In this document: piece by piece, positions 3,879-62,503 of the stretch
Numbering within the stretch: the stretch's first letter is position 1
Layout of the letters: each line of letters starts with the position of its first letter
Assembly: GCF_002251855.1 (NCBI RefSeq)
Contig: NZ_NOXW01000019.1
Location: forward strand, 1 to 64,000
Direction: 5' to 3'
Length of the DNA: 64,000 nt
DNA from: Rhodoferax sp. TH121
Lineage (GTDB): Bacteria; Pseudomonadota; Gammaproteobacteria; Burkholderiales; Burkholderiaceae_C
Translations under genes and position numbers: made by a program
The notes under the pieces: model-generated
Told to the model about the DNA's origin: nothing
Databases searched by the model: none
What the model saw: only the letters and a program-made list of their open reading frames with translations

Positions 3879-5443
3879 CTGCACGCGTAACTCTCCAGCC
3901 AAAGGGGCTTGCCGCGCCCCTGCCAAGAATGCAGATTGCTATTGCATTGATAGCGGCTTGCGCACAATCTGTGGGGGTCGCATGGCCTTTTGATGCTTTC
4001 TTTGAGCGCGGCGCCACCCTGTGGTGGCTACAACTGCTTGCCCAAGGCGTCTTCATTGCGGCGCTGTTGCGATCCCCCAGTGCGCGTGCTGCAGCAGGCT
4101 TGTCCTGGGCGTTTGCCACCGTATGGCTTAGTACGACGTTTTGGTGGCTGTTCATTGCATTGCACACCTACGGTGGCTTGCCCGCCGTGCTGGCGGTCGT
4201 GGCCATCGTTGCTTTGGCCGCCGCGTTGGGCATGTATTACGCCCTCGTGGGCATCGTTTTCTGGCGCTGGCGGCATGCCAGCGCCACCGTGTTGGCGGCT
4301 GGCTTTGCCGCAATGTGGACCATGGCGGAACTGGCCCGGGGAACTTGGCTCACTGGGTTTGGCTGGGGCGCGGTGGGTTATGCACACCTGGACGGCCCCT
4401 TGGGTTGGTATCTGCCTTGGGTTGGTAGCTACGGCGTGGGCGCGCTGGCGGCATTTGGTGCGGCCGCCTTGGCGCTGCTGGGGGGCAAGGGCATAGCCCC
4501 CGCGCTGGGCTTGGCAGCGCTGTTGGGCCTGCCATGGATAGCCCCCTCTGCGTGGAGTCACTGGACGCAACCCACGGGCACCCTGAGTGTCACGCTGCTG
4601 CAGGGCAATATCCCCCAGGACGAAAAGTTCGAAACTGGCAGTGGCGTGCCCTTGGCTCTGCAGTGGTACGGGCAACAACTGCATGCGAGCAGCACCGCAT
4701 TGGTTGTGGCGCCCGAAACTGCGGTCCCGTTGTTGCCCCAGCAGCTGCCTGAAGGCTACTGGCAGGCCCTGCAACAACGCTTTGCCAGCGGCAACACTAC
4801 GGCTCTCCTTGGCATCCCGCTGGGAAGCTACGCGATGGGGTATACCAATTCGGTACTGGGCTTGGCACCCGGGCAGCCAGAGCCTTGGCGCTATGACAAG
4901 CATCATCTGGTGCCCTTCGGTGAATTCATTCCCCCCCTATTCAAATGGTTCACCCGCATGATGAACATCCCGCTGGGGGACTTCAATCGCGGGCCACTGG
5001 GTCAGCCCTCGCTGCAGGTAGCCGGTGAGAGGGTAGCGCCCAATATTTGCTACGAAGACCTGTACGGTGAAGAACTGGCCAGCCGTTTCAACGATGCAGC
5101 CCAGGCGCCCACCGTGTTTGCCAATGTGAGCAATCTGGGCTGGTTCAACGATTCGATTGCGCTGGACCAACACCTGAATATCTCGCGCGCCCGGGCTCTG
5201 GAATTCCAGCGGCCCTTTGTCCGCGCCACTAACACCGGCGCCACTGCCATTCTGGACCACCACGCCGTGGTGCAAAAAATCCTGCCGGCTCGCACCCGGG
5301 GTGTGTTGGTAGGCGAGGTCCAGGGCCGTACCGGGGTGACCCCGTTTGCCTGGTGGGCGTCACGCTTTGGCCTCTGGCCTTTGTGGGTGCTGTGCATGCT
5401 GGTGGCCGCCATGGCTTGGGGCTTGGGTCGTCGCGCACGCTAA
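3875..5443 (+). CDS. lnt: Apolipoprotein N-acyltransferase
   Basis: This inner-membrane enzyme adds the third acyl chain to the N-terminal cysteine of lipoproteins. The N-terminal 200 residues are a series of hydrophobic helices. The C-terminal periplasmic nitrilase domain holds the expected triad: Glu in [10 protein letters not shown], Lys in [12 protein letters not shown] and Cys in [12 protein letters not shown] place the start at the GTG overlapping the corC stop, giving 522 residues; an ATG at 3931 would give a shorter N-terminus. The first hydrophobic stretch is encoded by a copy of the dispersed repeat (3935-3996), which is unusual for a membrane enzyme. Confidence 0.9.
3935..3996 (+). 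repeat. Dispersed ~60-bp repeat, copy 1 (inside lnt)
   Basis: This copy shows ATTGCTAT, then TTGATAGCGGCTTGCGCA, then a GGCC-TTTTGATGC end, the same order of blocks as the intergenic copies at 56031 and 58630. It reads in frame as [10 protein letters not shown] and becomes the first membrane helix of Lnt. Confidence 0.65.
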
Positions 5444-5525
5444 GGGCTTGCAGCCCCGTAAAATGCGGGGTTTACTCGAACGAACGTTCTTGCCGCGGCG
5501 CCCCGCGCGCACCGGCCCACGCACC

Positions 5526-6440: not shown

Positions 6441-6445
6441 GAGAC

Positions 6446-12832: not shown

Positions 12833-12856
12833 GGGATGTCCGGGTTTTGCTTCATA

Positions 12857-12880
12857 ATTGACGTTTACGTAAACGTCAAT
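12857..12880. promoter_or_regulatory. LiuR-type operator palindrome 1
   Basis: A perfect 24-bp palindrome, with half-site ATTGACGTTTAC and its exact mirror, lies between the divergent metallo-hydrolase and liuR. A second copy lies at 26687-26714. MerR-family LiuR is known to bind palindromes with ACGT cores in proteobacterial liu regulons, and the adjacent regulator makes this the obvious candidate. It could govern both divergent genes. Confidence 0.85.
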
Positions 12881-12937
12881 CTTGGAGGCATTGTAGGCAG
12901 GTGCAACCCGCCAGCCTGTCGCTTCAATTACCGCACC

Positions 12938-16679: not shown

Positions 16680-17345
16680 ATGACTGACAAACTCAACGAC
16701 CTCTTTTCCCGCAACCGCGAATGGGCCGCCGAGATGGAGCGCACCCGTCCCGGTTTCTTCACGGGGCTGGCCAACCAGCAAAAGCCCCAGTACATGTGGA
16801 TCGGCTGCTCCGACAGCCGTGTGCCCGCCAACGAGATCATCGGACTGGCGCCGGGCGAAATTTTTGTGCACCGTAACGTGGCCAATGTGGTGGTGCATTC
16901 CGACTTGAACGCGCTGTCCACCATCCAGTTCGCGGTGGAGCGGCTCAAGGTCAAACACATCATGGTGGTGGGCCACTATGGCTGCTCGGGCGTGCAGGCG
17001 GCGCTGGAAGGTGCGCGCATCGGTCTGGCCGACAACTGGCTGCGCCACATCCAGGATGTGCGTGACCGCCACCGCGACATCCTGGACGTCATCCCCGAAC
17101 ACGGCAAGGCCGCAGCGCTGTGCGAGCTCAATGCCATTGAGCAGGTGGTCAACGTGGCACAAAGCACGGTGCTGCAAGATGCCTGGGCGGCCGGACAAGA
17201 GGTGACGCTGCATGGCTGGGTCTACGGTGTGCACGACGGCCTGGTGCAGGACCTGCACATGACGGTGGGGCGCGAGGATGACCTTGCATTGCTGTACCGC
17301 GAGGCAATATCGGGCGTGCGCTTGATGCCTAGATATATAAGGTAA
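16680..17345 (+). CDS. can: Beta-class carbonic anhydrase
   Basis: This cytosolic zinc enzyme interconverts CO2 and bicarbonate. Zinc ligands and catalytic dyad are visible: Cys and Asp in IGCSDSRVP, His and Cys in GHYGCSGV. At 221 residues it matches the Can group. A copy of the dispersed repeat begins almost at the stop codon and fills the gap to aceK. Bicarbonate supply may serve the carboxylases encoded further along, but that link is inference. Confidence 0.94.
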   Translation: MTDKLNDLFSRNREWAAEMERTRPGFFTGLANQQKPQYMWIGCSDSRVPANEIIGLAPGEIFVHRNVANVVVHSDLNALSTIQFAVERLKVKHIMVVGHYGCSGVQAALEGARIGLADNWLRHIQDVRDRHRDILDVIPEHGKAAALCELNAIEQVVNVAQSTVLQDAWAAGQEVTLHGWVYGVHDGLVQDLHMTVGREDDLALLYREAISGVRLMPRYIR

Positions 17346-17398
17346 ATTGGCCTCTAGGCCCCGTTGTATATGCGCAAGCAGCTATCAAATATATAGCT
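17344..17398 (-). repeat. Dispersed ~60-bp repeat, copy 3 (can-aceK gap)
   Basis: On the minus strand this reads AGCTATATATTTGATAGCTG, then CTTGCGCATATACAACGGGG, then CCTAGAGGCCAATTT. It occupies the whole gap between carbonic anhydrase and aceK and touches the aceK ATG. It is one of the best-preserved copies. Confidence 0.85.
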
Positions 17399-17399
17399 T

Positions 17400-19238
17400 A
17401 TGACGGAGGCCATGCTTCCCGCCAGGCTGGACTCCACGCTGGCCTATGACATTGCCCGGGCGATGCTCGACGGCTTTAATCGCCACTACCAGCTCTTTCG
17501 CGCTGAGAGCGCGCGGGCCAAGCATCGCTTCGAAGTGGCTGATTGGCACGCCCAGCAACGTGCCCAGCGCGAACGCATCGAGTTCTATGACCTGCGCGTG
17601 AAGGAATGCTCCAAACGCCTGGAGCGGGAGTTCAAGGCAGGCGAACAAGGGCGTGCGCTTTGGCAGCAGATCAAGCTGCACTACATCGGGCTTTTGGTCG
17701 ACCACCACCAGCCCGAGCTGGCCGAGACTTTTTTCAACTCGGTCACGACCAAGATCCTGCACAGCAGCTATTTTCAGAACGACTTCATCTTTGTGCGGCC
17801 GGCGGTCAGCACCGAGTACATCGAAAACCTGGCCTCCGCCGGGCGGCCCAGTCACCGTCCCACCTACCGCTGCTACTACCCCACGCAAGACGACCTGCAA
17901 CAACAGCTGGTGCGCATGGTGCAAGACTTTGACCTGCGTGCGCCGTTTGAAGACCTGGTGCGCGACGCCGCACGTGTGCAAGGGGTGATGCAAGCCCAGC
18001 TGGGTGATGTCAAGTTACGGGCCAACTTGCAGGTGCAAGTGCTCACCGGGCTGTTCTTCCGCAACAAGGGTTGCTACATCATCGGCAAGCTCATCAACGG
18101 TTTCTACGAACATGGCTTCGCACTGCCGGTGTTGCACGGCCGCGGTGGCTTGCGCATCGACGCCGCGCTGTTTGGCGAGGACGACCTGCTGCGCCTGTTC
18201 AGCTTTGCCCGCGCCTACTTCATGGTGGACATGGAGATCCCCAGCGCCTACGTGCAGTTTTTGCGCAGCATGATGCCGCGTAAGCCACGCAACGAGCTCT
18301 ACAACGCGCTCGGACTGGCCAAGCAGGGCAAGACACTGTTCTACCGTGACTTTCTGCACCACCTGCAGCACAGCACGGACCAGTTTCGTATCGCCGCCGG
18401 TATCAAGGGCATGGTCATGCTGGTGTTCGACCTGCCCAGCTACCCTTATGTGTTCAAACTCATCAAGGACCACTTTCCGCACCAGAAAGAGACCACGCGC
18501 GAGCAGGTCAAGGCCAAGTACCAGCTGGTCAAGCAGCACGACCGCGTGGGCCGCATGGCCGACACGCTGGATTACGGAGATGTGGCTTTCCCGCGCGAGC
18601 GTTTCAGCGATGCGCTGATGGCCGAGTTGCAGGCGTACGCACCCAGCCAGTTCGAGATCAGCGACCGCGATGGCGACGGCCAGACTGAGGTCATCATCAA
18701 ACACCTCTACATCGAGCGGCGCATGATCCCGCTCAATATGTACCTGCAGGAAGCGTTTGACGCGGGCGGCGCCGACCCGGCCAATACCAGCCCGGCCGCG
18801 CTGCGGGCCCGCCAGCAGATCACCCGTGCCGTCATCGATTATGGCTATGCCATCAAGGACATGGTGGCCGCCAACATCTTCCCCGGCGACATGCTGTGGA
18901 AGAACTTCGGCATCACCCGCAACAGCCAGGTGGTGTTCTACGACTACGACGAGATTGAGTACCTGACCGCCTGCAACTTCCGCAAGGTGCCCGAGCCGCG
19001 CAACGAGGAAGAGGAAATGTCCAACGAAATTTGGTACCGCGTGGGCCCACACGATGTGTTCCCCGAGACCTTTGCCCCGTTTCTACTGGGCAATCCGCTG
19101 GTGCGTGAAGTCTTCCTGCAGTACCACGCCAATTTGCTGGACCCCGCCTTCTGGCAGACGCAGAAAGAGCGCATCGCGGCGGGCTATGTGCACGATGTGT
19201 TTCCGTATGAGAAGGGGAAGCGGTTTCCGCGCTACTGA
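17400..19238 (+). CDS. aceK: Isocitrate dehydrogenase kinase/phosphatase
   Basis: This bifunctional enzyme phosphorylates and dephosphorylates isocitrate dehydrogenase and so directs isocitrate to the TCA cycle or the glyoxylate bypass. Its 612 residues match the family. Signature blocks include [51 protein letters not shown] and [16 protein letters not shown]. The ATG at 17400 lies at the edge of a repeat copy; an ATG at 17412 (Met-Leu-Pro-Ala-Arg) would fit equally well. No aceA or aceB is adjacent. Confidence 0.95.
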
Positions 19239-22697: not shown

Positions 22698-23591
22698 ATG
22701 ACCGAGCACCAAAGAGACCCGGTGGCAGTGGCTTCTGCGCAGGTAAAGGAGGAGACCGCGAAGCGGTCGGGGGACACGGAGCAGAAGCCGCTGCCACCGG
22801 GGCGCTCATCCGCAAGCGAATGGAGTATTGGCGGTCGGACTTTGACCAGCCGCTTCTTCCTGGGCACCGCCGCCTACCCATCCCCACAAATCCTGCAAGA
22901 CGCCATCACCGCCTCCGGCGCCCAAGTCGTCACCATGGGCCTGCGCCGCCAACTGGCCCACGGCGCCGAGGCCAGCGACTTCTTTGCATTGATCAAAGCC
23001 ACCGGCGCCCACCTGCTCCCCAACACGGCAGGCTGCCACACCGCCCGCGAAGCCATCACCCTGGCCCACATGGCCCGAGAGCTGTTCGACACCCCCTGGA
23101 TCAAACTCGAGGTGGTCGGCGACGCCCATACCCTGCAACCCGACCCGTTTGAGCTGCTCACTGCCGCCACCCAGCTGGTCAAAGACGGCTTCGAGGTCTT
23201 CCCCTACTGCATGGACGACCTGGTGAGCTGCCAGCGCCTGCTGGACGCGGGCTGCACCATCCTCATGCCATGGGGCGCGCCCATCGGCTCGGGCCAGGGG
23301 CTGGTGAACCCCGGCGCACTGCGCACGCTGCGCGCGCGCCTGCCGGGCGTGCCGCTCGTCGTGGACGCGGGCATCGGTTCCCCTGCCGACGCCGTGCAGG
23401 CCATGGAACTGGGGCTGGACGCCGTGCTGCTCAACAGCGCCGTGGCGCACGCCGTAGACCCCGTGCGCATGGCGCGCGCCTTCAAGCTCGGCATCGAGTC
23501 TGGCCGCCTCGCGTTCGAGGCCGGCGTCATGGCCCGCCAGGACATGGCCGTGGCTTCCACGCCCGTTGCCGGTCATCCCATCCTGTTGTAA
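22698..23591 (+). CDS. thiG: Thiazole synthase with repeat-derived N-terminal extension
   Basis: This TIM-barrel enzyme assembles the thiazole phosphate from DXP, dehydroglycine and ThiS thiocarboxylate. The catalytic Lys lies in [22 protein letters not shown] and [13 protein letters not shown] are family blocks. The usual protein begins near [20 protein letters not shown]. Here about 43 extra residues precede it, and most of them are encoded by a large inverted repeat (22718-22801). They are probably a disordered, dispensable tail, unless translation starts later. Confidence 0.93.
22718..22801. repeat. Palindromic element inside thiG
   Basis: The arms CCCGGTGGCAGTGGCTTCTG (to 22738) and its mirror at 22781-22801 pair over 21 bp with one mismatch. 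The 42-base loop contains a nested hairpin, GACCGC-GAA-GCGGTC. The element is in frame at the start of thiG and lengthens the protein. Confidence 0.85.
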
Positions 23592-23651
23592 TGTGCTATG
23601 AAAAAAGAAGCTGCTCGCGCAATACCTACGAGGGCTAGAAGCACTTTAAGC
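23591..23651 (+). repeat. Dispersed ~60-bp repeat, copy 4 (thiG-thiDE gap)
   Basis: Blocks GTGCTATGAAAA, GAAGCTGCTCGCGCAATA and GAGGGCTAGAAGCACTTTAAG follow the family order. It fills the gap between thiG and the ThiD domain and supplies an ATG that opens a frame into thiDE. Confidence 0.8.
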
Positions 23652-25160
23652 ACGGAAGTTCCCCCCGTGGCGACTAACAAGCGCCCCGTGGTCTGGAGCA
23701 TCGCCGGCTCCGACTCAGGCGCAGGCGCTGGCCTGCAAGCCGACCTGAAAGCACTGCAGGCCTTTGGTGTGCACGGCTGCACGGCGGTGGCGGCCGTTAC
23801 CGCGCAAAACTCCGTGGCCGTTACCCGTGTGGAGCCTGTCAGCGCCGACCTGCTGGACGCGCAGCTGAGCGCAATGGCGCAGGACATGCCGCCCCAGGCC
23901 ATCAAGACCGGCCTGCTGGGCAGTGCGGACAACGTACGCGTGGTCAGCCAGTGGATAGATCGCTTGCGCGCGCAGGGCCATGCCGTCGCTTTGGTGGTGG
24001 ACCCAGTGCTGGGTTCCACTACGGGCGCGGCCTTTGCCAACGATGCGGTGCGCCAAGCCTATGTGGAAGAACTGCTGCCCCGCGCCACCCTCATCACCCC
24101 CAACCAGGCCGAGGCGCAGCGCCTGGGGCTGGCAGAGTCCGCCGCGCAGCAGGCCCTGCGGGCGCGGGGTGTGTCGCTGTGCATCACCGGCGGTGACGCG
24201 GATGATGCCCAAGCCAGTGACTGGCTGTGCAGCCCGCAGGCCACCGGTTGGCTCAGCCTGCCTCGCGTGGCCACGCACCACCACCACGGCACCGGTTGCA
24301 CCTTCGCCTCCACCGCCGCCGCCGCGCTGGCCAGCGGCTACTGCGTGGCCGACGCCGTGGTGCTGGCCAAGATGGCCACCACCCACGCCCTGCGCCACGC
24401 CTACGCAGCCGGGCAGGGCGCAGGCCCGGTGCAGGCCCTGCCGGACTTTGCGCAGCACATCGATAACCTGCCCGCCTTCACGCTGCCAGGTGCTGCCGCG
24501 CCACTGGATGTACATGCGCTGCCATCCTTCGCGCACCTGAGCAATCCCGCCTTGGGTGTCTACCCTGTGGTGGACAGCGCGGCCTGGGTGCGCCGCGTGT
24601 TGGTGGCCGGCATTCGCACCGTGCAGCTGCGCATCAAGGAACCGAACGAACCTACGTTGGCCACGCAGATCGCGGAGAGCATTGCGGCAGCCAACGCCAC
24701 GCCGCGTGCGCAGCTGTTCATCAACGACCACTGGCAACTCGCGCTGCAACACGGCGCCTATGGGGTGCACCTGGGCCAGGAGGATTTGGAACAGGTGGAT
24801 CTGCAGGCGCTGCGCCAGGCCGGCGTGCGCTTAGGGCTAAGCACCCATAGCTACTGGGAAGTCGCCCGCGCCTGGGCCCTGCGCCCCAGCTACATCGCCT
24901 GCGGCCCCATCTTCGCCACCCAAAGCAAAGACATGCCCTGGATTCCGCAGGGCCTGGACAACCTGCGCTACTGGGCCAGTGTGTTACCCCTGCCCGTGGT
25001 GGGTATTGCAGGCATTCATGTGGGCAATGTGGCGGACGTGGCCGCGACTGGGGCGGCCAGTGCAGCGGTGATTTCGGCGATCACGAAGGCGGCTAACCCT
25101 GAACAGGCGTGTGCGGCTTTGCTGCAGGGTTTTGCTGGCGGGACTACGCGCCCGGCTTGA
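23598..25160 (+). CDS. thiDE: HMP-P kinase / thiamin-phosphate synthase fusion
   Basis: This bifunctional enzyme phosphorylates HMP-P (ThiD, about residues 30-290) and joins HMP-PP to thiazole phosphate (ThiE, about residues 320-515). ThiD blocks are WSIAGSDSGAGAGLQADLKA and HHHHGTGCTFASTAAAALA. ThiE blocks are LFINDHWQLALQHGAYGVHL and CGPIFATQSKDMPWIPQGL. The ATG at 23598 lies inside a dispersed repeat; a GTG at 23667 (Val-Ala-Thr-Asn-Lys-Arg-Pro) behind GGAAG is a better family start. Its end overlaps the convergent protease gene by 17 bases. Confidence 0.93.
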   Translation: MKKEAARAIPTRARSTLSTEVPPVATNKRPVVWSIAGSDSGAGAGLQADLKALQAFGVHGCTAVAAVTAQNSVAVTRVEPVSADLLDAQLSAMAQDMPPQAIKTGLLGSADNVRVVSQWIDRLRAQGHAVALVVDPVLGSTTGAAFANDAVRQAYVEELLPRATLITPNQAEAQRLGLAESAAQQALRARGVSLCITGGDADDAQASDWLCSPQATGWLSLPRVATHHHHGTGCTFASTAAAALASGYCVADAVVLAKMATTHALRHAYAAGQGAGPVQALPDFAQHIDNLPAFTLPGAAAPLDVHALPSFAHLSNPALGVYPVVDSAAWVRRVLVAGIRTVQLRIKEPNEPTLATQIAESIAAANATPRAQLFINDHWQLALQHGAYGVHLGQEDLEQVDLQALRQAGVRLGLSTHSYWEVARAWALRPSYIACGPIFATQSKDMPWIPQGLDNLRYWASVLPLPVVGIAGIHVGNVADVAATGAASAAVISAITKAANPEQACAALLQGFAGGTTRPA

Positions 25161-27927: not shown

Positions 27928-27976
27928 ATTCCGAAGCTGCTTGCGCAGTTTGCGCGCGGGCTGGAGGCACAAAATG
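27918..27976 (+). repeat. Dispersed ~60-bp repeat, copy 6 (thiolase-SDR gap)
   Basis: ATTGCTATAAATTCCGAAGC, TGCTTGCGCAG and GGGCTGGAGGCACAAAATG follow the family blocks. It contains the thiolase stop codon and ends at the SDR start codon, so it forms the entire intergenic gap. Confidence 0.85.
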
Positions 27977-28657
27977 AATGTATTCGTGATCGGCGCTTCG
28001 CGCGGTATTGGTTTGGAAGTGGTGCGCCAGCACCTGGATGCGGGCGACCGCGTGATTGCCACCGCGCGCGACGACGCTGGCCTGCAGCGCCTGCGTGACA
28101 TGGGCGCTCAGCCCCTGAAACTGGACGTGACCGACCCCGCCAGCGTGAGCGGCCTGAGCTGGGCGCTGGACGGCGAGAAGCTGGACATGGCCTATTACGT
28201 GGCCGGCGTGTTCAGCACCGAAGATGCCAAATCGCCTCCCACCCAGCAGGCTTTTGACGCCATGCTGCACGCCAACGTGCTGGGTGCCATGCAGGCCCTG
28301 CCGCAGGTGGCACCCTGGGTGGAAGAGGCGCAAGGCCAGTTCGTCTTCCTGACCAGTGACTTTGCCCAGATTGGCGGCGTGGAAAGCAGCCGCGGCTGGG
28401 TCTACCACGTGAGCAAGGCCGCGCTGAACATGGCGGTGGTCGCTGCACAGCCCGATTACCCCAAGGCCCAGTTTCTGTTGATCCACCCCGGCTGGGTGCG
28501 GACCGAGATGGGCACGCCCGATGCGCCCCTGCTGCCCGAAGAAAGCGTGGCAGCCATCCGCGCCACCGTGGCCGCGCGCAAGACGGGCAAGACTGGATTT
28601 GCTTGCAGCGATGTGCCCTACATCCGCTGGGACGGGACGCCCTTCTCCAGCTGGTAA
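27974..28657 (+). CDS. Short-chain dehydrogenase/reductase
   Basis: This 227-residue Rossmann-fold oxidoreductase has the cofactor motif VIGASRGIGLEVVRQHL and the catalytic Tyr-x3-Lys in WVYHVSKAALN. The arginines after the first strand (TARDD) suggest NADP(H). It resembles C-factor-like SDRs whose substrates are unknown. It lies between thiolase and acyl-CoA dehydrogenase in the LiuR-type operon, so a hydroxyacyl or related intermediate is possible. Confidence 0.85.
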   Translation: MNVFVIGASRGIGLEVVRQHLDAGDRVIATARDDAGLQRLRDMGAQPLKLDVTDPASVSGLSWALDGEKLDMAYYVAGVFSTEDAKSPPTQQAFDAMLHANVLGAMQALPQVAPWVEEAQGQFVFLTSDFAQIGGVESSRGWVYHVSKAALNMAVVAAQPDYPKAQFLLIHPGWVRTEMGTPDAPLLPEESVAAIRATVAARKTGKTGFACSDVPYIRWDGTPFSSW

Positions 28658-41580: not shown

Positions 41581-42348
41581 ATGTGTGGAGCCGAATTGAC
41601 AGAGTTACCTGAAGGTGTGCAGCGTGTCGCTGCCGAATTGCAAGCAAAAAACCACCCCCATAGCCCGGTGATGCTGGACGGCGCCGCACGCACCGCTCAG
41701 CAGGCGGCCGATGCGCTAGGCGTGGCCGTGGGCCAGATTGCCAAGAGCATCATCTTCAAGCGCATCGAAGACGATGTGGCGGTGCTGGTCGTCACCTCGG
41801 GTGACCGCCGTGTGGACGAAGCCAAGGTGGCGGCGCTGGTGGGGCCGCTGGGCCGGGCCAATGCGGCCTTTGTGAAGGAGCGCACGGGGTTCAGCATAGG
41901 CGGCGTGAGCCCGGTTGCGCACGCCTTGCCCGGTGTGACGCTGATCGACCAGGAGCTGTTTCGCTTTGAGGAAGTATGGGCCGCGGCAGGCCACCCGCAT
42001 GGTGTCTTCAAGCTGCACCCCGAACACCTGGTGGCGCTGACCGGTGCACCGGTAGCCGATGTGGTGGAGGCGCCCGAGGATGAAGATGTGCTGGATGCAT
42101 TGGCGCGTGAAAATGCTATCAAAACGCTAGCTACTCGCGCACTATCCATAAGCTCAATCGCTGAAAACGTGCCCAGTCCTTGTGTGAATGTATGTCGCAT
42201 GGATACGGGCAGTGGCCTGTGCGAAGGCTGTTTTCGCACCATCGATGAGATCCGCGAGTGGGGCCGCAGCGATGATGCAGCCAAAAAGGTGATGTGGACC
42301 CACATCACCGATCGCCTGCGGCAGACTCATCCCGAGGCGTTTTCCTGA
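41581..42348 (+). CDS. YbaK/prolyl-tRNA deacylase domain fused to DUF1289
   Basis: The N-terminal 165 residues are a YbaK-type aminoacyl-tRNA deacylase domain (AKSIIFKRIEDDVAVLVVTS; FSIGGVSPVAHA). The C-terminal 50 residues are a DUF1289 module with SPCVNVCRMDTGSGLCEGCF (Cys-x3-Cys-x8-Cys-x2-Cys). The linker between them is encoded exactly by a forward copy of the dispersed repeat. The two domains are normally separate proteins, so the fusion may have arisen when the repeat replaced a stop codon. The start ATG TGT lies eight bases after liuE. Confidence 0.85.
   Translation: MCGAELTELPEGVQRVAAELQAKNHPHSPVMLDGAARTAQQAADALGVAVGQIAKSIIFKRIEDDVAVLVVTSGDRRVDEAKVAALVGPLGRANAAFVKERTGFSIGGVSPVAHALPGVTLIDQELFRFEEVWAAAGHPHGVFKLHPEHLVALTGAPVADVVEAPEDEDVLDALARENAIKTLATRALSISSIAENVPSPCVNVCRMDTGSGLCEGCFRTIDEIREWGRSDDAAKKVMWTHITDRLRQTHPEAFS
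42111..42164 (+). repeat. Dispersed ~60-bp repeat, copy 11 (YbaK-DUF1289 joint)
   Basis: AATGCTATCAAAACGCTAGC, TACTCGCGCACTATCCATAA and GCTCAATCGCTGA follow the left and central blocks of the family. It is translated as Asn-Ala-Ile-Lys-Thr-Leu-Ala-Thr-Arg-Ala-Leu-Ser-Ile. Confidence 0.75.
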
Positions 42349-45819: not shown

Positions 45820-48800
45820 ATGTCCCAGGGATCCATCCGCATTCGCGGAGCGCGGCAGCACAATCTCAAGAACCTCGATCTAGATATTCGCACCGGCGAA
45901 CTGACCGTGGTGACAGGGCCCAGCGGCTCGGGCAAGTCCAGCTTGGTGTTTGACACGCTGTACGCAGAAGGCCAGCGCCGCTACGTGGAAACCTTCAGCG
46001 CCTACGCCCGCCAGTTTCTGGACCGCATGGACAAACCCGCGGTGGACAAGGTGGAAGGCGTGCCTCCGGCCATCGCCATCGACCAGACCAATCCGGTGCG
46101 CTCCAGCCGCTCCACCGTGGGCACCATGACGGAGCTCAACGACCACCTGAAGCTGCTGTTCTCCCGCGCCGGCAATCTGTTTGACAAAGACACGGCGCTG
46201 CCCGTGCAGCACGACACGCCGGAGACGATTTACGCCGAGCTGCTGCGTCGCGCCGCCAGCGAGGGAAACCCGCGCCTGGTGCTGACGTTTCCCGTGGAGT
46301 TGCCCGCCAGCACCACACAAGACGAAGTGACCCAGTGGCTCAGCGCCAGCGGCTTTACACGGGTACAGGCGGAGCGTGAGGTGGGCACCATCAGCGGCCC
46401 CCGCAAGGTACTGGACGTGGTGGCCGATCGCTTCCGCATCGACGGGGTGGAGAAGGCCCGTGTGCTGGAAGCGATTGAAGTCGCTTTGAAGCGCGGCAGC
46501 GGTCGACTCAATGTTTATGTGCTAAATGAGGTCCTGGCCCCCGCGAATACTGCGCAAACAGCACCTGAAACTGTAGCTAATGCTGCGCCTGCCTTGTGGC
46601 GTTTTTCTACAGGCTTGCATTGCCCACAGAGCGACATCCGTTACAGCGACCCCCTCGCGTCCATGTTCAGCTTCAATTCCGCCGTGGGCGCCTGCGAAGC
46701 CTGTCGTGGCTTTGGCCGTGTGGTGGGGGTGGACTATGGACTTGTCATCCCTAACGACAAGCTGACCTTGCGCGCGGGCGCTGTCAAACCCATGCAGACC
46801 CCCGCGTGGCAAGAGTGCCAGGACGATTTGATGCGCCATGCCGAGGCCAGCGGTATTCCGCGTGATACGCCTTGGTACAAGCTGACCGAGGAGCAGAAGC
46901 ACTGGGTGCTCAAGGGCTCGCCGAACTGGAATGGCAAGTGGAACCAGCACTGGTTTGGCGTGGACCGTTTCTTTGAATACCTGGAAAGCAAGGCTTACAA
47001 GATGCACATCCGGGTGCTCTTGTCGAAATACCGCAGTTACACGCCGTGTGGCACCTGCGGCGGTGCGCGGCTCAAGACCGAGAGCCTGCTGTGGCGCATT
47101 GGCACCAAGGCGCAGGCCGACGCGGTGCTGCCGCCGGCCAAGCGCTTCATGCCGCAGGGCGTGAAGTGGACGCGCGCGCAGCTGGAGGCGCTGCCGGGCT
47201 TGTGTCTGCATGATTTGATGCTGATGTCGTTAGACAAGCTGAAGAGGTTTTTTGATTCGCTGCAGTGGCAGCTCGATGGAAGTGGGGCGGAGCCAAGGGT
47301 GTCGGCAGAGGCCTCATCCACTCGCTTCGCGATTGGCAAATCGGCCTCCGCCGACACCCCTGGCTCCGCTTCGCGTTCGGGCGATGTTGCTCCGGCCCAG
47401 TCTGAGGCTGAAGCCAAAACCCTCAAGCTCTTGTTTGAAGAGGTGGGCACGCGGCTCAAGTACTTGTGCGACGTGGGCATTGGCTACCTCACGCTGGACC
47501 GGCAGAGCCGCACGCTGTCGGGCGGCGAGGTGCAGCGTATTAACCTGACCACGGCGCTGGGTACATCCCTGGTCAACACCCTGTTTGTGCTGGATGAGCC
47601 CAGCATCGGCCTGCACCCGCGTGACATGAACCGCATCATCGTGGCGATGCAGCGCCTGCGCGATGCGGGCAACACGCTGGTGGTGGTGGAGCATGACCCG
47701 GCGGTGATGCTGGCGGCCGACCGCATGATCGACATGGGCCCCGGCCCGGGCGAGAAGGGCGGCAACATTGTGTTTGACGGAACGACCGAGGCGTTGAAGG
47801 CAGCGGACACCATGACCGGGGCTTACCTGGGCGGCCGCAAACAGGTCGGCATGGGCTTCAAGCGCATGGTGGCACCCAATACGCCGCGCCTGATTCTGGA
47901 GGGCGTGACCGAGCACAACCTCAAAAACGTGTCTGTGGAGATTCCACTGCAGCGCCTGGTCTGTGTGACGGGCGTGTCGGGTTCGGGCAAGTCCACGCTG
48001 ATTCAAGACGTGCTGGCACCTGCGCTGCTGCGCTACTTTGGCAAGGCCACCGAAACCCCGGGCGCACACAGCCGCCTGCTGGGGGCCGAGCAGCTCAGCG
48101 AAGTGGTATTTGTGGACCAGTCTCCCATCGGCAAGACGGCGCGCTCCAACCCCGTGAGTTATGTGGGGGCGTGGGACGCGATCCGCGAGCTGTTTGCGGG
48201 TGCTGCCTTGTCCAAGGAGCGCAGCTACACGGCCAGCAAATTCAGTTTCAACAGTGGGGACGGCCGCTGCCCCACCTGCGGTGGCTCGGGCTTTGAGCAT
48301 GTGGAGATGCAGTTCCTGAGCGACGTGTACCTGCGCTGCCCCGACTGCGATGGCAAGCGTTACCGGCCAGAGATTCTGGAAGTCACCATCGAACGCAAGG
48401 GCCGTAATGTGAACGTGGCTGATGTACTGGACCTGACGGTGAGCGAAGCCGCCGACCTGTTCAGCGCAGACCGTGATGTGATCCGCGTGCTGCAGCCCAT
48501 CGTGGACGTGGGGCTGGAGTATGTGAAGTTGGGCCAGCCGGTGCCGACCTTGTCAGGCGGCGAGGCGCAGCGCCTCAAGCTGGCAGGCTTTCTTGCGGAG
48601 GCAGCGAAGGGGGGGAGCGCCAGCCGGCAATTCCTGGGCAAAAAGGGTTCGCTCTTCATGCTCGACGAGCCGACCACGGGGCTGCATTTTGACGACATCG
48701 CCAAGCTGATGCGTGCACTGCGAAAGTTGTTGGATGCGGGGCATTCGTTGGTTGTCATCGAGCACAACCTGGATGTGATTCGTGCGTCGGACTGGCTCAT

Positions 48801-53116: not shown

Positions 53117-53173
53117 CCCCGCGGCACCATTGCGGTCATGTTCAACCCGTCCTGTAGGACACGAAAGACCGCC

Positions 53174-54663: not shown

Positions 54664-56030
54664 AGTTCAAAGGGCTTACGTTCTGTGTCAAGGCACACCG
54701 CCGTGCCAAGCATGCGCTGGGGCACTCGCTGCGCGTGAAGCTGGTGGCGCTGTTTGTGGTGCTGGCGCTCACCATGGCCGCGGCGTTTACCTTCGGCATG
54801 CAGGCTGCCATGGGGGCCAGCTGGCGCGCCGTGGCCAAGCCCTTGCTCACCGATTATGTGGACCGTCTGGCCGCCGATATTGGCAGCCCACCCAGCACCG
54901 AGCGGGCTTTGGCCCTGACCGAGCAACTGCCCCTGAGCATCCGCATCACCGGCCCCCAACTCAACTGGCGCAGCCACCCGCTGGAGCCTGAGCTGGACTG
55001 GATGTATGACGACCACGGCCCCGGGGAGGAATACAAGTTTTTCCAGCGCACCACCGCCGACGGGCACCGCGTCCAGTTCGGCATCAGCGTGCAGGCCTGG
55101 AACCAAAAGCCCCGCTTCATTGGCTGGGTCACGTTGGCCACCCTTTTGCTCTTGACCTGGGTGGCCTACAAATGGGTGCGACGCATGCTGCGCCCGCTGG
55201 ACGATATTCGGGCCGGAGCCCTGCGCTTTGGTGCGGGCGACTTTGCCCACCACATCCCCGTGCGCCACGCCCACCGCCCTGACGAGCTGGGCGAGCTGGC
55301 TGCGACCATCAACACCATGGGCGCGGATATTCATCAGATGCTTGAAGCCAAGCGCACGCTGCTGCTGGCCATCAGCCACGAGCTGCGCAGCCCGCTGACC
55401 CGCGCCCGCCTCAACACCGAGCTGCTGCCCGAGAGCAGCGAGGTACAGCCCAGCCGTGATGCGCTGCTGCGCGACCTGGCGCTGATGCGCGATCTGGTGA
55501 CCGACCTGCTGGAAAGCGAACGCCTGGCCAGCCCGCACGCCGCCCTGCACCGCGAGGCAGTCGACCTGCCGGCTCTGGTGCGCGATGTGGTGTGTGAATT
55601 GCAGTCCGCCCATGCGCAGGCCGATGGCTCTGGCGCGCCGAACATTGCCACTGCGCTGCCCCAGACCATGCCCCCGCTGTCGCTGGACCCCACCCGCATG
55701 CGCCTGCTGGTGCGCAACCTGCTGGACAACGCCCTGCGCCACAGCAGCGGTGCCAGTGCGCCGCCCCGGGTGGAGGTGCAAACCTTGGCCGACGGCGCTG
55801 TGCAGATCGCCGTGCGCGACTTCGGCCCCGGCGTCGCCGAAGACCAGCTCCCCCACCTGGGCCAACCCTTCTTCCGCCCGGACGCCGCCCGCACCCGCGA
55901 AGGCGGCGGCGTCGGCCTGGGCCTTTACCTTTGCCGCCTGGTCGCCCAGGCCCACGGCGGCAGCTTTGCCGTGCGCAATGTGCAGCCGGGGCTGGAAATC
56001 TGCGTGGTTCTGCCCGACCAGAAGTTGTAA
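54660..56030 (+). CDS. Sensor histidine kinase
   Basis: This 456-residue inner-membrane kinase has two membrane helices (about 20-45 and 155-175) around a periplasmic sensor domain, a HAMP segment (RRMLRPLDDIRAGALRFGAG), the phospho-His in LLAISHELRSPLTRARLN, the N-box LVRNLLDNALRHS and G-boxes DFGPGVAEDQ and GGGVGLGLYL. It pairs with the overlapping response regulator. Its stop is directly followed by a dispersed repeat. Confidence 0.93.
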   Translation: MKFKGLTFCVKAHRRAKHALGHSLRVKLVALFVVLALTMAAAFTFGMQAAMGASWRAVAKPLLTDYVDRLAADIGSPPSTERALALTEQLPLSIRITGPQLNWRSHPLEPELDWMYDDHGPGEEYKFFQRTTADGHRVQFGISVQAWNQKPRFIGWVTLATLLLLTWVAYKWVRRMLRPLDDIRAGALRFGAGDFAHHIPVRHAHRPDELGELAATINTMGADIHQMLEAKRTLLLAISHELRSPLTRARLNTELLPESSEVQPSRDALLRDLALMRDLVTDLLESERLASPHAALHREAVDLPALVRDVVCELQSAHAQADGSGAPNIATALPQTMPPLSLDPTRMRLLVRNLLDNALRHSSGASAPPRVEVQTLADGAVQIAVRDFGPGVAEDQLPHLGQPFFRPDAARTREGGGVGLGLYLCRLVAQAHGGSFAVRNVQPGLEICVVLPDQKL

Positions 56031-56090
56031 ATTGCTCCTGTATTGATAGCTGCTCGCGCAATAGATACCTGGGCTAGAGGCCAATTTCAA
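56031..56090 (+). repeat. Dispersed ~60-bp repeat, copy 13 (kinase-zeta convergent gap)
   Basis: ATTGCTCCTG, TATTGATAGCTGCTCGCGCA and GGGCTAGAGGCCAATTTCAA show all family blocks. It fills the gap between two convergent genes; the zeta-toxin stop codon lies in its last bases. Confidence 0.88.
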
Positions 56091-56683
56091 TCCCAAAGCA
56101 CCTGCCGTGCCCACTCGGGCATGGGCTGCACCAGTTCTTGTGTCCGGTCGCCTTTGCAGGTGGCCACGGCAGTGTGCGTGCCGGGCGTTACGTCAGCAGA
56201 GTCGTAAAGAATGGCGGCGTCGGCCAGGCGCACCGCTTGGGTGAGGTGGGCTAGCGTGCGCGTGTAACGCGCCAGAATGCGTTCAGGGGGCACAGTGTGG
56301 CCGCCCTCAAGAACCCGCTGAGCCACGCGCGCCAGCAGGCGTCCCGGCCTGTCCAACGCCACCACCAACAGCATGACGAAGAAGCCTGCTGCTTGGGCCT
56401 CTTGAATGAGCACGAGTTTGGACTTGTGTGAGAACACAGTCTCGCTCGCAAATGACTGACCTGCTTGCAGCAGCGCGGCCCGGCGCGCGTCGGCCCACTG
56501 GCGGGCTTGCTCAGAGCGCTGCGCTGGGTCGGCAATGTGTTGCAGGTGTGCGGTCTCGTGCAGGTCGGCGTTCACAAACTCTGCTGCGGCCGGGATGGTG
56601 CCTGCCAATACCAGTGCGCGATACAGGGTGGACTTGCCTGCGCCGTTGGGCCCGGCCAGCAGGTAGAAGACGGGTTGCCCCAT
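56087..56683 (-). CDS. Zeta-toxin-like P-loop kinase
   Basis: This 198-residue protein starts with a Walker A motif in LLAGPNGAGKSTLYR and carries EFVNADLH and SFASETVFSHKSKL, features of zeta toxins that phosphorylate UDP-GlcNAc sugars and block cell-wall synthesis. The antitoxin-like gene ends one base before its ATG. murA, whose pathway zeta toxins affect, lies nearby; this may be coincidence. Some members of this group act as plain ATPases. Confidence 0.8.
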   Translation of the reverse strand: MGQPVFYLLAGPNGAGKSTLYRALVLAGTIPAAAEFVNADLHETAHLQHIADPAQRSEQARQWADARRAALLQAGQSFASETVFSHKSKLVLIQEAQAAGFFVMLLVVALDRPGRLLARVAQRVLEGGHTVPPERILARYTRTLAHLTQAVRLADAAILYDSADVTPGTHTAVATCKGDRTQELVQPMPEWARQVLWD

Positions 56684-57350: not shown

Positions 57351-58628
57351 ATGTCTACTTTTGAAATCGAAGGCGGCGTGCCCCTGCGGGGCACGATCCG
57401 CGCCTCTGGCAACAAGAACGCCATCCTGCCCATGATTGCGGCCTGCATCCTGACCGACCGGGAGGTGGTGCTGGACAACGTGCCCGACATCATCGACGTG
57501 CGCCACATGCTGGACGTGATCGTCGAGATTGGTGGCAAGGTGGAGCGCAGCGGTGAGCGCGTGAGCATCCATGTAGCCAGCGTGCGCACCAATGAGATTG
57601 GGCAGGCGCTGTGCAACAAGGTGCGTACCTCCATCCTCTGCGTGGCCGGCCTGCTGCACCGCACCGGCAAGGCGCGCCTCTACCCGCCCGGTGGCGACGT
57701 GATTGGCCGCCGCAGGCTGGATACGCATTTCTACGGTCTGATGAAGCTGGGTGCCAAGGTGTCCATCGAAGCGACCTATGACTTTGAAGTGCCCGGCGCG
57801 CTGACCGGCGCCGAGCTGTTCTTTGACGAACCCTCCGTCACCGGTACCGAGCACATCCTGATGGCTGCCGCCGTGAGCCGCGGCCACACCCTGATCCGTA
57901 ACGCGGCCTGCGAGCCGCATGTGCAAGACCTGGCCCACCTGCTCAACGCCATGGGCGCCAAGATCACCGGCATTGGCACCAACCAGCTCAGCGTGGAGGG
58001 CGTGCCTTCCTTGGGCGGTGCGCACTACAGTGTGTGCCACGACCATATCGAGGCTGCGTCCTACCTGGCGCTGGCTGCTGCCACGGGCGGCGAGATCACG
58101 GTGGAAGGCACCGACAAGCACGCCTACGGCATGTGCCACCGCGTGTTCGAGACCCTGGGCGTCAAGATTGAGCTGCACGACAAGCACATCTACCTGCCCG
58201 CCAACCAGACCCTGCGCGTGACGCGCGAGTTCGACGGTGCCATGCCGGTCATTGGCGACGGCCCCTGGCCCCAGTTCGCCACCGACCAGATGAGCTGCAT
58301 GATCACGCTGGCCACGCAAGTGGAGGGCAATGTGCTGTTCTTCGAGAAGATGTTCGAGTCGCGCCTGTACTTTGTGGACAAGCTCATCGCCATGGGCGCG
58401 GCCGCCGTGGTGTGCGACCCGCACCGCGTGGTCATCAGCGGGCGCAGCAAGCTGCGCGGCACCACACTGCCTTCCCCCGACATCCGTGCGGGCATGGCGC
58501 TGCTGGGCGCGGCCTTGTGCGCGAGTGGCAAGTCCACGCTGCAAAATGCCAACATGATCCAGCGCGGCTACGAGAAGTTGGACGAGAAGCTGCTGGCGCT
58601 GGGCGCCCGCATCACGCTGAAGGCCTGA
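57351..58628 (+). CDS. murA: UDP-N-acetylglucosamine 1-carboxyvinyltransferase
   Basis: This enzyme catalyses the first committed step of peptidoglycan synthesis, adding enolpyruvate to UDP-GlcNAc. The 425-residue protein starts at the usual FEIEGGVPLRGTIRASGNKN. The active-site Cys is in SILCVAGLLHRTGKARLYPP, which fits a variant loop; the Cys115 equivalent cannot be fixed by eye. Later blocks are TEHILMAAAVSRGHTLIRNA and DLRAGMAL-like PDIRAGMALLGAAL. A dispersed repeat follows. Confidence 0.93.
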   Translation: MSTFEIEGGVPLRGTIRASGNKNAILPMIAACILTDREVVLDNVPDIIDVRHMLDVIVEIGGKVERSGERVSIHVASVRTNEIGQALCNKVRTSILCVAGLLHRTGKARLYPPGGDVIGRRRLDTHFYGLMKLGAKVSIEATYDFEVPGALTGAELFFDEPSVTGTEHILMAAAVSRGHTLIRNAACEPHVQDLAHLLNAMGAKITGIGTNQLSVEGVPSLGGAHYSVCHDHIEAASYLALAAATGGEITVEGTDKHAYGMCHRVFETLGVKIELHDKHIYLPANQTLRVTREFDGAMPVIGDGPWPQFATDQMSCMITLATQVEGNVLFFEKMFESRLYFVDKLIAMGAAAVVCDPHRVVISGRSKLRGTTLPSPDIRAGMALLGAALCASGKSTLQNANMIQRGYEKLDEKLLALGARITLKA

Positions 58629-58629
58629 G

Positions 58630-58690
58630 ATTGCTATATAAAAAGTAGCTGCTTGCGCATATTCCATAAGGGCTGGAGCCCTATTTGATG
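58630..58690 (+). repeat. Dispersed ~60-bp repeat, copy 14 (murA-hdac gap)
   Basis: ATTGCTATATAAAAAGTAGC, TGCTTGCGCATATTCCATAA and GGGCTGGAGCCCTATTTGAT show the full block order. It fills most of the gap before the deacetylase gene. It is a good reference copy. Confidence 0.9.
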
Positions 58691-58709
58691 CCTAAAAGAG
58701 GCCTTAGCC

Positions 58710-60455: not shown

Positions 60456-61649
60456 TTAGGGTGTGTCGCCGCGCCGGGTGCGCAGCAGCGCGAGCAACCC
60501 TACCGCGGCCACCGCAATCAGTACCAATGGAAACCCCCGCGTGGGAGACCAATCAATCAGCGCGCCTGAGAGGGCCGAGGCCACCAGCCCGCCCAGCGTG
60601 TAATTGAGCACCAGCACTGCGGTGCTATTGACCAGGGTGATGCCCTGTTCGCGCGCACCGATGTCTGTCATGCTCAGGGTGTAGAGGCTGCTACCCGCCG
60701 CACCCAGCACAAACACGATGGGCCAGGCCAGCCACTGCGCTTGCGCCACCAGCGGCAGCCCACAGGCCGCCACCAGCGCAATCGCCGCGCTCAGTGTCAT
60801 CAGCGTACGTCGCCCGCGCACCTTGTCCGCATATCGGTCGGCCACCATGCCCACGGGAATGGCGGCCAGCGTGCTGCCCAGGCCGCTGACCGAAATCAGC
60901 AATGCCGCCGCCGCTGCACCCAGGCCCATGGCCAGGCCATACAGCGGAAGGATGGAGGCCAAACCCAGCTCAAAAAAACCGCCTATAAATCCGGCCAGCA
61001 TGATCGCGGGGTGGCTGCGCACGGCCAGCCACAGGCCATGCAGGCCCACCGGTGTCTGGGCCGATTCGGCATGTGGTGGCACCACAGGAATCAGTGCCGT
61101 CCATGCCAGGCCGACGCCGAGCAGGGCAATGACCAAGCCCAGCGCCGCCTGCCCATCCGGCCCGACCCAGGCCAGCAGCGTGGGGCCGATGATGAAGGTG
61201 GCGCCCACCATGGTGGCGTAGATGCCGATGTAGCGGCCCAGTCGGTCCGAAGGCGAGAACTCGGCAATAAAGGCCTCGGCCAGCACCCAGCGCAAGCCGC
61301 CCGCCACGCCAGCCAGCAGCTCCAGGGAAAACCACAGCCAGAGCGCGTCGGTGGTCAAAAATCCAATCGCAGCCAGCAGCGGCGCGCCCGACGCAAACCA
61401 CATGGTGCGCCGCTGTCCCCAGCGCCGGGTGAGCGCGGAGGCAAACGGGGTGACGATAAAAATGCCCAGCCAAGTGGTGGCGGCAAACAGGCCCGCCACA
61501 GATGTGGACACCTCGCGCTGCGTCAGCAGCACCAGCATCAGCGGCGAGAGCATGAACACGCCTGAGAGCTGGAACAGCGTGGACCCAAAGACCGCCAGCA
61601 GCCCCATGGGGGAGCCGGGGCCGTTGCGCCGCGGAGCACCTGCACTCAT
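60456..61649 (-). CDS. MFS transporter
   Basis: This 397-residue protein has about 12 hydrophobic helices and MFS-type loops (SALTRRWGQRRTMW between helices 2 and 3; VADRYADKVRGRRTLM mid-protein). It resembles sugar-efflux or drug-efflux transporters. It starts within the stop codon of the HAD gene (ATGA), so the two form one unit. Substrate unknown. Confidence 0.85.
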   Translation of the reverse strand: MSAGAPRRNGPGSPMGLLAVFGSTLFQLSGVFMLSPLMLVLLTQREVSTSVAGLFAATTWLGIFIVTPFASALTRRWGQRRTMWFASGAPLLAAIGFLTTDALWLWFSLELLAGVAGGLRWVLAEAFIAEFSPSDRLGRYIGIYATMVGATFIIGPTLLAWVGPDGQAALGLVIALLGVGLAWTALIPVVPPHAESAQTPVGLHGLWLAVRSHPAIMLAGFIGGFFELGLASILPLYGLAMGLGAAAAALLISVSGLGSTLAAIPVGMVADRYADKVRGRRTLMTLSAAIALVAACGLPLVAQAQWLAWPIVFVLGAAGSSLYTLSMTDIGAREQGITLVNSTAVLVLNYTLGGLVASALSGALIDWSPTRGFPLVLIAVAAVGLLALLRTRRGDTP

Positions 61650-62503
61650 GCGCCACGCGCTCGCAGAATGGCGCGTGCCACTTCGGCAAAGCCAGCGCCG
61701 CGCTCAGCCTGTGCCACGTAGCGTGGCAGGTGTTGGAGCTGCGGGGCAAAGTGGGCGATATTGGCCACCCCCACGCTGTGCGTGAAGTGTTCAAACATGG
61801 CCTGGTCGTTGCCCGAGTCGCCCACAAACACCCAGCGGTCCAGCTCGGTGGGCAAGTCGCGCCCCAGCAGTTCGCGCGCAATCCAGCAGGCGCCCTGCCA
61901 TTTGTTGAAGTTGCCAAAGCAGCCGTGGATGTGGATGCTGCTCACCGTGGTTTGCATGCCCGCATGCTGCAGCACGGCCAGCACCTGCTGCACGGTATCG
62001 GGCGAGAGGCGGGCGAATTCTGCGTAGTCAAACGCCAAGTCCGTCTCGCGCCCGGCGCTGTCGCGGCTGAGCTGCACGCCGGGCACCTCGGCCATTACCT
62101 GGGCCGCAATGGCCTGCATGCGGGCCTGGTTGGCGGTGCGTGTCTCGACATCTTGTTGATACAGTTTTGATAGCTGCTTGCGCAGATTTGACGGGGTCTG
62201 CAGGCCTTTTTGTCTTGTATTTGTGCCAGTTGATTCGTGCACGAAGGCCACTGCTCCGTTCTCCGCCACCATGGCGTCCACCGGCCATGCGGCGCCGTGG
62301 GTGCCGGCCATAAACGGCTCGCACCAGCCAATGGGCCGCCCTGTGATGGGGATGACGAACAGGCCTGCGGCCTTCAGGTCGGCCAGCGCCTGCAGCGCGT
62401 CCGCGGTGATGGCGCCTTGGGTGGTCAGGGTATCGTCAATGTCGGTGAACACACCCACCACAGTGCGGCGGGCGGCTTCGGGCCAGTGGGTCAGGGCTTG
62501 CAT
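61646..62503 (-). CDS. HAD-family phosphatase (mannosyl-3-phosphoglycerate type)
   Basis: This 285-residue Cof-type HAD hydrolase has VGVFTDIDDTLTTQGAIT (nucleophile Asp), IPITGRPIGWCEPF, and the Mg-binding RWVFVGDSGNDQAMFEHF. Relatives act on phosphosugars. The ATG at 62503 is preferred over an upstream in-frame start. A dispersed-repeat copy is translated within its cap region (LRKQLSKLY). It is coupled to the MFS gene, which hints at a sugar export or salvage role. Confidence 0.82.
   Translation of the reverse strand: MQALTHWPEAARRTVVGVFTDIDDTLTTQGAITADALQALADLKAAGLFVIPITGRPIGWCEPFMAGTHGAAWPVDAMVAENGAVAFVHESTGTNTRQKGLQTPSNLRKQLSKLYQQDVETRTANQARMQAIAAQVMAEVPGVQLSRDSAGRETDLAFDYAEFARLSPDTVQQVLAVLQHAGMQTTVSSIHIHGCFGNFNKWQGACWIARELLGRDLPTELDRWVFVGDSGNDQAMFEHFTHSVGVANIAHFAPQLQHLPRYVAQAERGAGFAEVARAILRARGA
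62160..62212 (+). repeat. Dispersed ~60-bp repeat, copy 15 (inside HAD gene)
   Basis: GTTTTGATAGCTGCTTGCGC followed by GGGGTCTGCAGGCCTTTTTG matches the family centre and right end. The gene reads it on the minus strand in a frame different from most other intragenic copies. Confidence 0.75.

Follow-up and report, generated by a model that had tools for sequence, protein, structure and literature searches.

A dispersed 70-bp repeat of Rhodoferax sp. TH121 arose within genes by base substitution and is a candidate DNA uptake signal of the Comamonadaceae

The first 64,000 nucleotides of contig NZ_NOXW01000019.1 of Rhodoferax sp. TH121 (hereafter the window; contig C15, positions 1-64000, of a 3.99-Mb genome labelled G000) contain 15 listed copies of a dispersed repeat of about 70 bp that lie in both orientations between genes, at gene edges and within genes. 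Comparison with related genomes indicates that the copies at the in-gene sites tested arose by base substitution and not by insertion. By analogy with the uptake signal sequences (USS) of the Pasteurellaceae and the DNA uptake sequences (DUS) of the Neisseriaceae, we suggest, with evenly balanced confidence, that the repeat may function in the Comamonadaceae as a genome-wide double-stranded DNA recognition signal for the uptake of self-DNA in natural transformation.

The repeat was described by an ungapped position profile of 70 columns that was built from the sequence itself and used with a cut-off of 8 bits. The profile from the own genome contains 52.8 bits, the consensus is taaatTGCTATaaATTTgaTAGCTGCTtGCGCAgtaTccACGgGGGCTAgaGGCcaATTTggctctaAAt and the arms are AT-rich; an independent aligner applied to 61 copies from nine genomes gives exactly 70 columns without gaps. 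Scanning 464 kb of the own genome (the window and an additional 400 kb) gave 75 matches of at least 8 bits and no tandem array, versus no matches in Markov-simulated sequence (one first-order simulation) and none with the reversed profile. The initial annotation had proposed a profile scan against a control of this kind and had listed 15 positions in both orientations, ten of them inside genes. The profile recovers all 15 copies, at 17.3 to 74.3 bits, and the gene caller likewise places ten of the 15 in genes. The scan also bears out the description of a dense, dispersed and gene-less repeat, and no established name was found in the literature searched, though fragments of the repeat apparently occur in PMC5217627. 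The size was underestimated as about 60 bp, and the density of approximately one copy per 4 kb is correct for the window but falls to one per 6.2 kb over the 464 kb. Scaling up from this sample, we estimate that the whole genome may hold about 640 copies. The lowest-scoring window copies lie at 37665, where the match is confined to the left half (17.3 bits), and at 34486 (27.8 bits). An extra window match at 3891 (20.9 bits; included in the 75) overlaps the copy at 3932 on the opposite strand and is regarded as its shadow because the left arm is near-palindromic. Shorter probes gave the same picture: the 16-mer core alone has 12 window matches at up to three mismatches versus 1.37 expected, and the 15-mer core has 102 matches at up to one mismatch in the whole genome with none for the reversed control.

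The evidence for an origin by substitution comes from twelve genomes of the same genus with syntenic DNA, including G183 and G199. At the thiolase site at 27269, the motif is present in six of the twelve relatives (31.9 to 46.4 bits) and absent in the other six (-13.5 to -26.6 bits); none of the twelve alignments has a gap over the 70 nt. Similarly, all twelve relatives are gap-free at the biotin carboxylase site at 37665, where four have and eight lack the motif (at a 12-bit limit and for a half-match copy). In total, seven in-gene sites yielded 72 orthologue alignments, 37 motif-bearing (two gapped) and 35 motif-less (15 gapped), and none of these alignments contains an empty site of 60-70 nt. 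A net length change was found in 5/35 motif-less orthologues vs 68/480 control segments. Two of the 35 (G125 at 39351 and G197 at 42109) are artefacts that appear motif-less on account of a shortening by a 4-nt gap, and ungapped scans find copies of 39 bits and 22 bits, respectively, at these sites. With the artefacts removed, net length differs in 3/33, all in the UvrA gene at 46514 (20, 21 and 27 nt), where an insertion or deletion is possible.

Because motif-less orthologues at the thiolase and biotin carboxylase sites are equal in length to those with the motif and differ by substitutions alone, a mobile element is disfavoured at the in-gene sites and was rejected there. The initial annotation had concluded that the repeat must be moved by something else and had named clean empty sites in relatives as the sign of mobility; at these seven sites the former inference is not supported, and no empty site of motif length was found. 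Gene conversion between loci, which it had offered as an alternative and which may have contributed to the intergenic copies, would not be expected to leave the protein frame conserved, the length unchanged and most changes synonymous. These insertion tests concern the in-gene sites; the intergenic copies were tested less, and not in number. Redfield and colleagues applied the same type of gap test to the USS of Haemophilus influenzae, found gaps in 24% of alignments and concluded that these sequences had not been inserted (PMC1626085).

The motif is conserved at the level of DNA. In a comparison of the own genome with five motif-bearing relatives at the window sites, in which related genomes were counted as independent, differences affect 34/273 third codon positions (12.5%) where the column exceeds 1 bit vs 2896/9407 (30.8%) in the flanks (p = 2.9e-12). 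For intergenic and edge copies, 1/104 high-information positions differ vs 560/3964 in flanks (p = 4e-6). In-gene columns of 0.3-1 bit differ more often than flanks (331/1284 vs 4614/28198), suggesting that the sites also lie in tolerant stretches of the proteins. The arms GCTAT...ATAGC look paired in a hairpin-like manner. However, neither covariation of pairs nor an excess of paired bases was detected in the arms in three sets of 70, 120 and 50 copies (permutation p 0.30 to 1), a test to which invariant arm pairs contribute no information. A hairpin or RNA element was rejected on the basis of this result and of the presence of copies in genes in both sense and antisense orientation, which points to a DNA signal rather than an RNA signal. 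The strongest dependences between columns are mostly between neighbours (such as 40/41, 17/18 and 24/25), as would be expected for a protein that contacts double-stranded DNA.

The 75 matches are divided into 39 in genes (17 sense, 22 antisense), 23 intergenic and 13 at gene edges, and the noncoding and edge share of 36/75 is far over the expectation at approximately 85.5% coding DNA (p = 6e-12). Among the 39 genic copies, 30 use one and the same reading frame (p = 3e-8), which is read as LIAACA in sense and AQAAI in antisense, and some copies encode the N-terminal hydrophobic signal of a protein (6/30 fetched loci, judged by eye; e.g. MPPLAKFALFLIAACAVSTGAIAQ and MQKRNTLKLIAACAALVCSTATFAQ). 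Matches fall on the two strands in the ratio 23/29 on C15 and 10/14 on a second contig, C17. Spacing over all matches in the own genome is more regular than random (coefficient of variation 0.74 vs 1.01, P = 0.0005), and two 41-nt shadow pairs included in this set act against regularity; short gaps between copies are rare on C15 (P = 0.002), with P = 0.28 on C17. Forty 20-kb pieces of the complete chromosome of G236 contain 122 copies, whose distribution is more even than expected at random (dispersion 0.54, P = 0.008). A replication polarity seen in the first 400 kb of this chromosome (19/64 copies on the leading strand, p = 0.0016) was rejected, as it is no longer significant with 800 kb at fixed origin and terminus, where 53/122 copies are on the leading strand (p = 0.17).

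In the Comamonadaceae genomes compared, the 70-bp frame is constant and its letters shift by lineage. G000, G183 and G199 have GCGCA...GGGCT or GCGCT...AGAGgC; G015, G120, G004 and G136 have GCGCTTg...CAAGCGC or near; G035 has TTGAGCA...CATGGGCT and G125 has TAGCTGtCTGCGCA; in G197 both arms are kept and the centre has decayed. An exact 13-mer undercounts other dialects, and G125 and G197, which seemed poor by this measure, prove motif-rich in broader scans. Two potential novel motifs listed in Table 7 of Tong et al. (PMC5217627), ATAGCT(N)22CAAAAG in Polaromonas naphthalenivorans (125 copies, 81% intergenic) and GCTTAT(N)5AAGCG in Acidovorax ebreus (114 copies, 94% intergenic), are reported there with no function assigned. 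ATAGCT(N)22C(N)4G falls at a single offset in 45/51 matches in six genomes, and GCTT(N)7AAGCG falls at a single fixed offset within copies in 25/50 matches in four Acidovorax-like genomes; the other 25, equal in number per genome, we infer to be the opposite-strand mirror of near-palindromic sites. Each pair can be placed in the 70-bp frame at a fixed offset, so that the two very likely represent fragments of two dialects of the motif, a link that is drawn from spacing in genomes other than those of Tong et al.

The distribution of the motif is wide but patchy. With one mismatch allowed, the 15-mer core matches at least 20 times in 22 (the own genome included) of 150 genomes sampled from the family, with a maximum of 306, and not at all in 59; the reversed 15-mer has at most three in any of them. 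Within the genus, a model from the 61 copies applied to 100 genomes gave at least 50 matches in 42, 8-43 in four, 1-5 in 28 and none in 26; the filters in this census were strict, so that low counts may be underestimates, and counts given as 50 stand for at least 50. Near-empty genomes include ones that are 100% complete, i.e. G211 (5.5 Mb in one contig, one match) and G226, G181 and G167 (no match each). In a sample of 200 genomes from the order, nine have a match, and at least 25 matches were found only in the own genome and in G128 of the same family; as the model derives from Comamonadaceae, foreign dialects elsewhere in the order could escape it. Matches occur in 4/72,556 plasmid records, all from Comamonadaceae, and in 0/50,697 phage records. 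Rare among plasmids, the 31.9-kb plasmid NZ_CP019241.1 of Rhodoferax antarcticus has three places that match the motif.

The observed motif with its gap-free form, in-gene origin by substitution, DNA-level constraint, spread on both strands and along the whole sampled chromosome, dialects, wide distribution and high information content together have the signature of a signal driven by biased uptake and recombination, an argument also made for USS and DUS. From these observations we infer that uptake is the cause and that a receptor exists. In this model, the 70-bp motif would be bound at the cell surface by a receptor, probably one of the minor pilins of type IV pili, and fragments with the motif would be preferentially taken up and recombined. 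Alleles with a better match would replace alleles with a worse match, point mutations that make or improve matches would accumulate where the proteins tolerate them, and the spelling of the motif would shift along with the receptor. More tentatively, and with somewhat less than even confidence, we propose that the motif is the longest uptake signal so far, a modular self-mark of about 70 bp in which the arms are constant and the centre either differs from species to species or decays, G197 being an example, which biased uptake has written into protein genes and signal peptides and which acts as a sexual barrier between genera.

Physiological data on the family fit with an uptake signal. Verminephrobacter and Acidovorax, both Comamonadaceae, are naturally transformable, and type IV pili have been shown for V. 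eiseniae (PMC4212676). According to the same report, an excess of salmon DNA cuts transformation of V. eiseniae approximately 10-fold and no further, and A. temperans is transformed by DNA of its own species only; DNA uptake in V. eiseniae and Acidovorax is selective, and the available text of the report identifies no uptake sequence (PMC4212676). The 70-bp motif is a natural candidate for the uptake sequence that might underlie this selectivity.

Several observations weigh against an uptake signal. When all gaps are counted, motif-less sites are gapped more often (15/35) than controls (119/480; p = 0.027). ComEC, found in 91/100 genus genomes including motif-free ones, is missing in 5/42 motif-rich genomes vs 4/58 others, and GspH pseudopilins are present in 26/26 genomes tested, motif-rich and motif-poor alike; accordingly, both were rejected as genes that discriminate motif-rich from motif-poor genomes. 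G175 is motif-rich and 99% complete and has no ComEC candidate, which makes it a natural case for following motif decay after loss of competence. Moreover, USS and DUS measure 9-12 bp, far less than the motif, and DUS are denser (5918 copies of kingDUS in 2.4 Mb; PMC3630211) than the motif with its approximately one copy per 6 kb. Finally, the fine spacing is even on C15 and not significantly so on C17 or within the G236 pieces (P = 0.28 and 0.40).

The main alternative, to which we give clearly lower credence, is an intracellular genome-wide binding site for a protein with a role in chromosome organisation, segregation or protection, in which case selection would write the motif into genes by substitution. 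Such a site would account for the even spread along the sampled G236 chromosome, the constraint on DNA, the local dependences of neighbouring columns, the chromosomal rather than phage location (0/50,697 phage records) and the existence of motif-rich genomes without ComEC. The information content of 53 bits is, however, far above the need for finding a site in 4 Mb, and the motif is absent from many genomes of the genus. The segregation motifs KOPS and matS show polarity or clustering at the origin or terminus; the repeat has neither significant strand polarity nor such clustering.

Two further explanations involve mobility. We consider it improbable that the motif has a mixed origin in which it was initially an inserting repeat that spread, its old copies were then retained because they had acquired a function, and copies within genes were subsequently gained or faded by substitution. 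The strong excess outside genes (36/75 noncoding or edge), the motif-less UvrA orthologues that are shorter by 20-27 nt at 46514 and the length differences at 27915, where G183, G199 and G208 are longer by 108-111 nt and G125 by five, would fit with this history, and intergenic copies, as stated above, were not compared in number. Nevertheless, motif-less orthologues are gap-free at 27269 and 37665, no gap of 60-70 nt exists in the 72 alignments and the 61 copies from nine genomes are ungapped. Less credible still is a repetitive extragenic palindromic (REP)-like element or a miniature inverted-repeat transposable element (MITE)-like element that is mobilised in trans, e.g. by a Y1 transposase resembling REP-associated tyrosine transposases (RAYT). 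The own genome has one Y1_Tnp gene (approximately 240 aa; locus L031 1465-2200, G000:C17:783964), and a motif copy lies directly past its stop codon. This copy is suggestive, but the link was rejected as not general: only 6/31 fetched Y1_Tnp loci have a motif copy, Y1_Tnp occurs in 93/100 genus genomes, usually as one gene and also in motif-free ones, and it is missing in 5/42 motif-rich genomes. The origin of in-gene copies by substitution and the lack of hairpin covariation likewise speak against mobilisation.

If the repeat is an uptake signal, it would identify the sequence responsible for the selective uptake that has been measured in Verminephrobacter and Acidovorax, and a single genus with many motif-bearing and motif-free genomes would then allow the debate on drive versus selection to be tested. 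Should uptake not be responsible, some unknown force has spread a motif of 53 bits across chromosomes, which would be at least as surprising.

The window copies and their host genes are listed in Table 1. Genes were called with a home-made program that makes mistakes where open reading frames (ORFs) overlap, i.e. at 27269 and at 251775 in the extended contig; it set the copy at 27269 in an overlapping ORF, and the Pfam support there belongs to the thiolase gene.

Table 1. Copies of the 70-bp motif in the window, with scores in bits from the profile of the own genome; sense and antisense refer to the host gene.
Position	Strand	Location	Score	Support and relatives
3932..4001	+	near start of apolipoprotein N-acyltransferase gene (ORF 3836-5443 +), sense	51.6	Pfam LNT_N and CN_hydrolase; G183 orthologue 63.5 bits
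9978..10047	-	near start of YgjP-like metallopeptidase gene (ORF 9947-10861 +), antisense	62.9	Pfam PF01863; G199 orthologue 64.6 bits, gap-free
17334..17403	-	intergenic, tandem genes either side	72.5	kept in G199 (75.1 bits) and G183 (68.5 bits), alignments with small gaps
23589..23658	+	gene start (gene edge; ORF 23598-25160 +)	60.2	kept in G199 and G183
27269..27338	-	within thiolase gene (ORF 26746-27927 +), antisense	40.9	Pfam thiolase
27915..27984	+	across end of thiolase gene and following gap	61.0	
34486..34555	+	weak copy within AraC-type regulator gene (ORF 34071-35174 -), antisense	27.8	Pfam; 0/11 orthologues reach 12 bits
36018..36087	-	within carboxyl transferase gene (ORF 35225-36832 +), antisense	53.9	Pfam Carboxyl_trans; kept in 8/12 relatives
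37665..37734	-	half-copy in N-terminal domain of biotin carboxylase gene (ORF 37466-39673 +), antisense	17.3	Pfam Biotin_carb_N
39351..39420	-	BT domain region of biotin carboxylase gene (ORF 37466-39673 +), antisense	42.5	Pfam BT_MCC_alpha, residues 531-652; kept in 6/8 aligned relatives at 12-bit limit
42109..42178	+	between tRNA_edit and DUF1289 domains of one gene (ORF 41581-42348 +), sense	42.2	Pfam; kept in 6/7 aligned relatives at 12-bit limit
46514..46583	-	within 2113-aa UvrA-type gene (ORF 45820-52161 +), antisense	59.0	Pfam UvrA domains; G211, G226 and G184 motif-less and 20-27 nt shorter
56028..56097	+	intergenic, convergent genes either side	64.5	G183 and G199 alignments partial only
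58627..58696	+	intergenic, tandem genes either side; best window match	74.3	kept in G199 (60.2 bits)
62152..62221	+	within HAD-type hydrolase gene (ORF 61646-62536 -), antisense	67.5	Pfam Hydrolase_3; G183 orthologue 50.0 bits, gap-free

The window has additional features of its own. The 2113-aa product of ORF 45820-52161 is a UvrA-type protein of double length; it has internal repeats, and the UvrA interaction domain occurs in two stretches. A direct repeat of 64 nt, 78% identical and starting CGACATAAACCGAAACAAAGCG, is located at 52202-52265 and 53067-53130. Near-identical palindromes around AATTGACGTTTACGTAAACGTCAATT are found at 12856-12885 and 26684-26713; presumably, they resemble regulator sites of leucine/isovalerate catabolism.

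In the literature searched, which left most subscription journals outside its coverage, neither the core string of the motif nor a paper combining "DNA uptake sequence" with Comamonadaceae was found, and the only text match to GGGCTAGAGGCC, judged from a title listing, was a paper on a human enzyme. Among described repeats, the Beta-proteobacterial repeat element (BRE; PMC3110155) likewise occurs in Betaproteobacteria including Comamonadaceae and has some copies in genes. However, BRE is 75-91 bp long, has 69% GC in Bordetella and is often tandem, with four copies in R. ferrireducens and 29 at most (PMC3110155). On this description BRE was set apart from the motif with its 70 columns, AT-rich arms and hundreds of non-tandem copies; the BRE consensus is given only in a figure. 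REP elements with RAYT and MITEs resemble the motif in being short, gene-less and dispersed; unlike them, the motif shows neither pairing covariation nor, in the tested genes, signs of insertion, and it is not associated with a Y1 transposase. The pairs of Tong et al. differ from it in that they are reported as separate short pairs, without the full motif or a link between the two (PMC5217627).

The closest parallels are the uptake sequences themselves, which have been described chiefly in Pasteurellaceae and Neisseriaceae as far as abundant ones are concerned (PMC1939737, PMC7811141). Like the motif, the USS of the Pasteurellaceae (core AAGTGCGGT or ACAAGCGGT with AT-rich flanks) have hundreds of copies in and between genes, originate by substitution, have lineage variants and contain AT-rich blocks at fixed spacing (PMC1626085). 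The motif differs in having about 70 bp and 53 bits vs a 9-bp core, in sequence and family, in its sparser distribution and in that its role in uptake is proposed. The DUS of the Neisseriaceae are also betaproteobacterial, have many copies and dialects that follow lineages, and are lacking in some family members; DUS are 10-12 bp and are bound by the pilin receptor ComP (PMC3630211), whereas the motif has 70 bp and its receptor is only predicted. Because the repeat comprises 70 columns and 52.8 bits and not a core of 9-12 bp, we suggest that it may work like USS and DUS and do not file it as a member of either. If this suggestion is correct, the Comamonadaceae would be a third family with an uptake sequence, a large and environmental one, and their motif would be several times longer than those of the other two.

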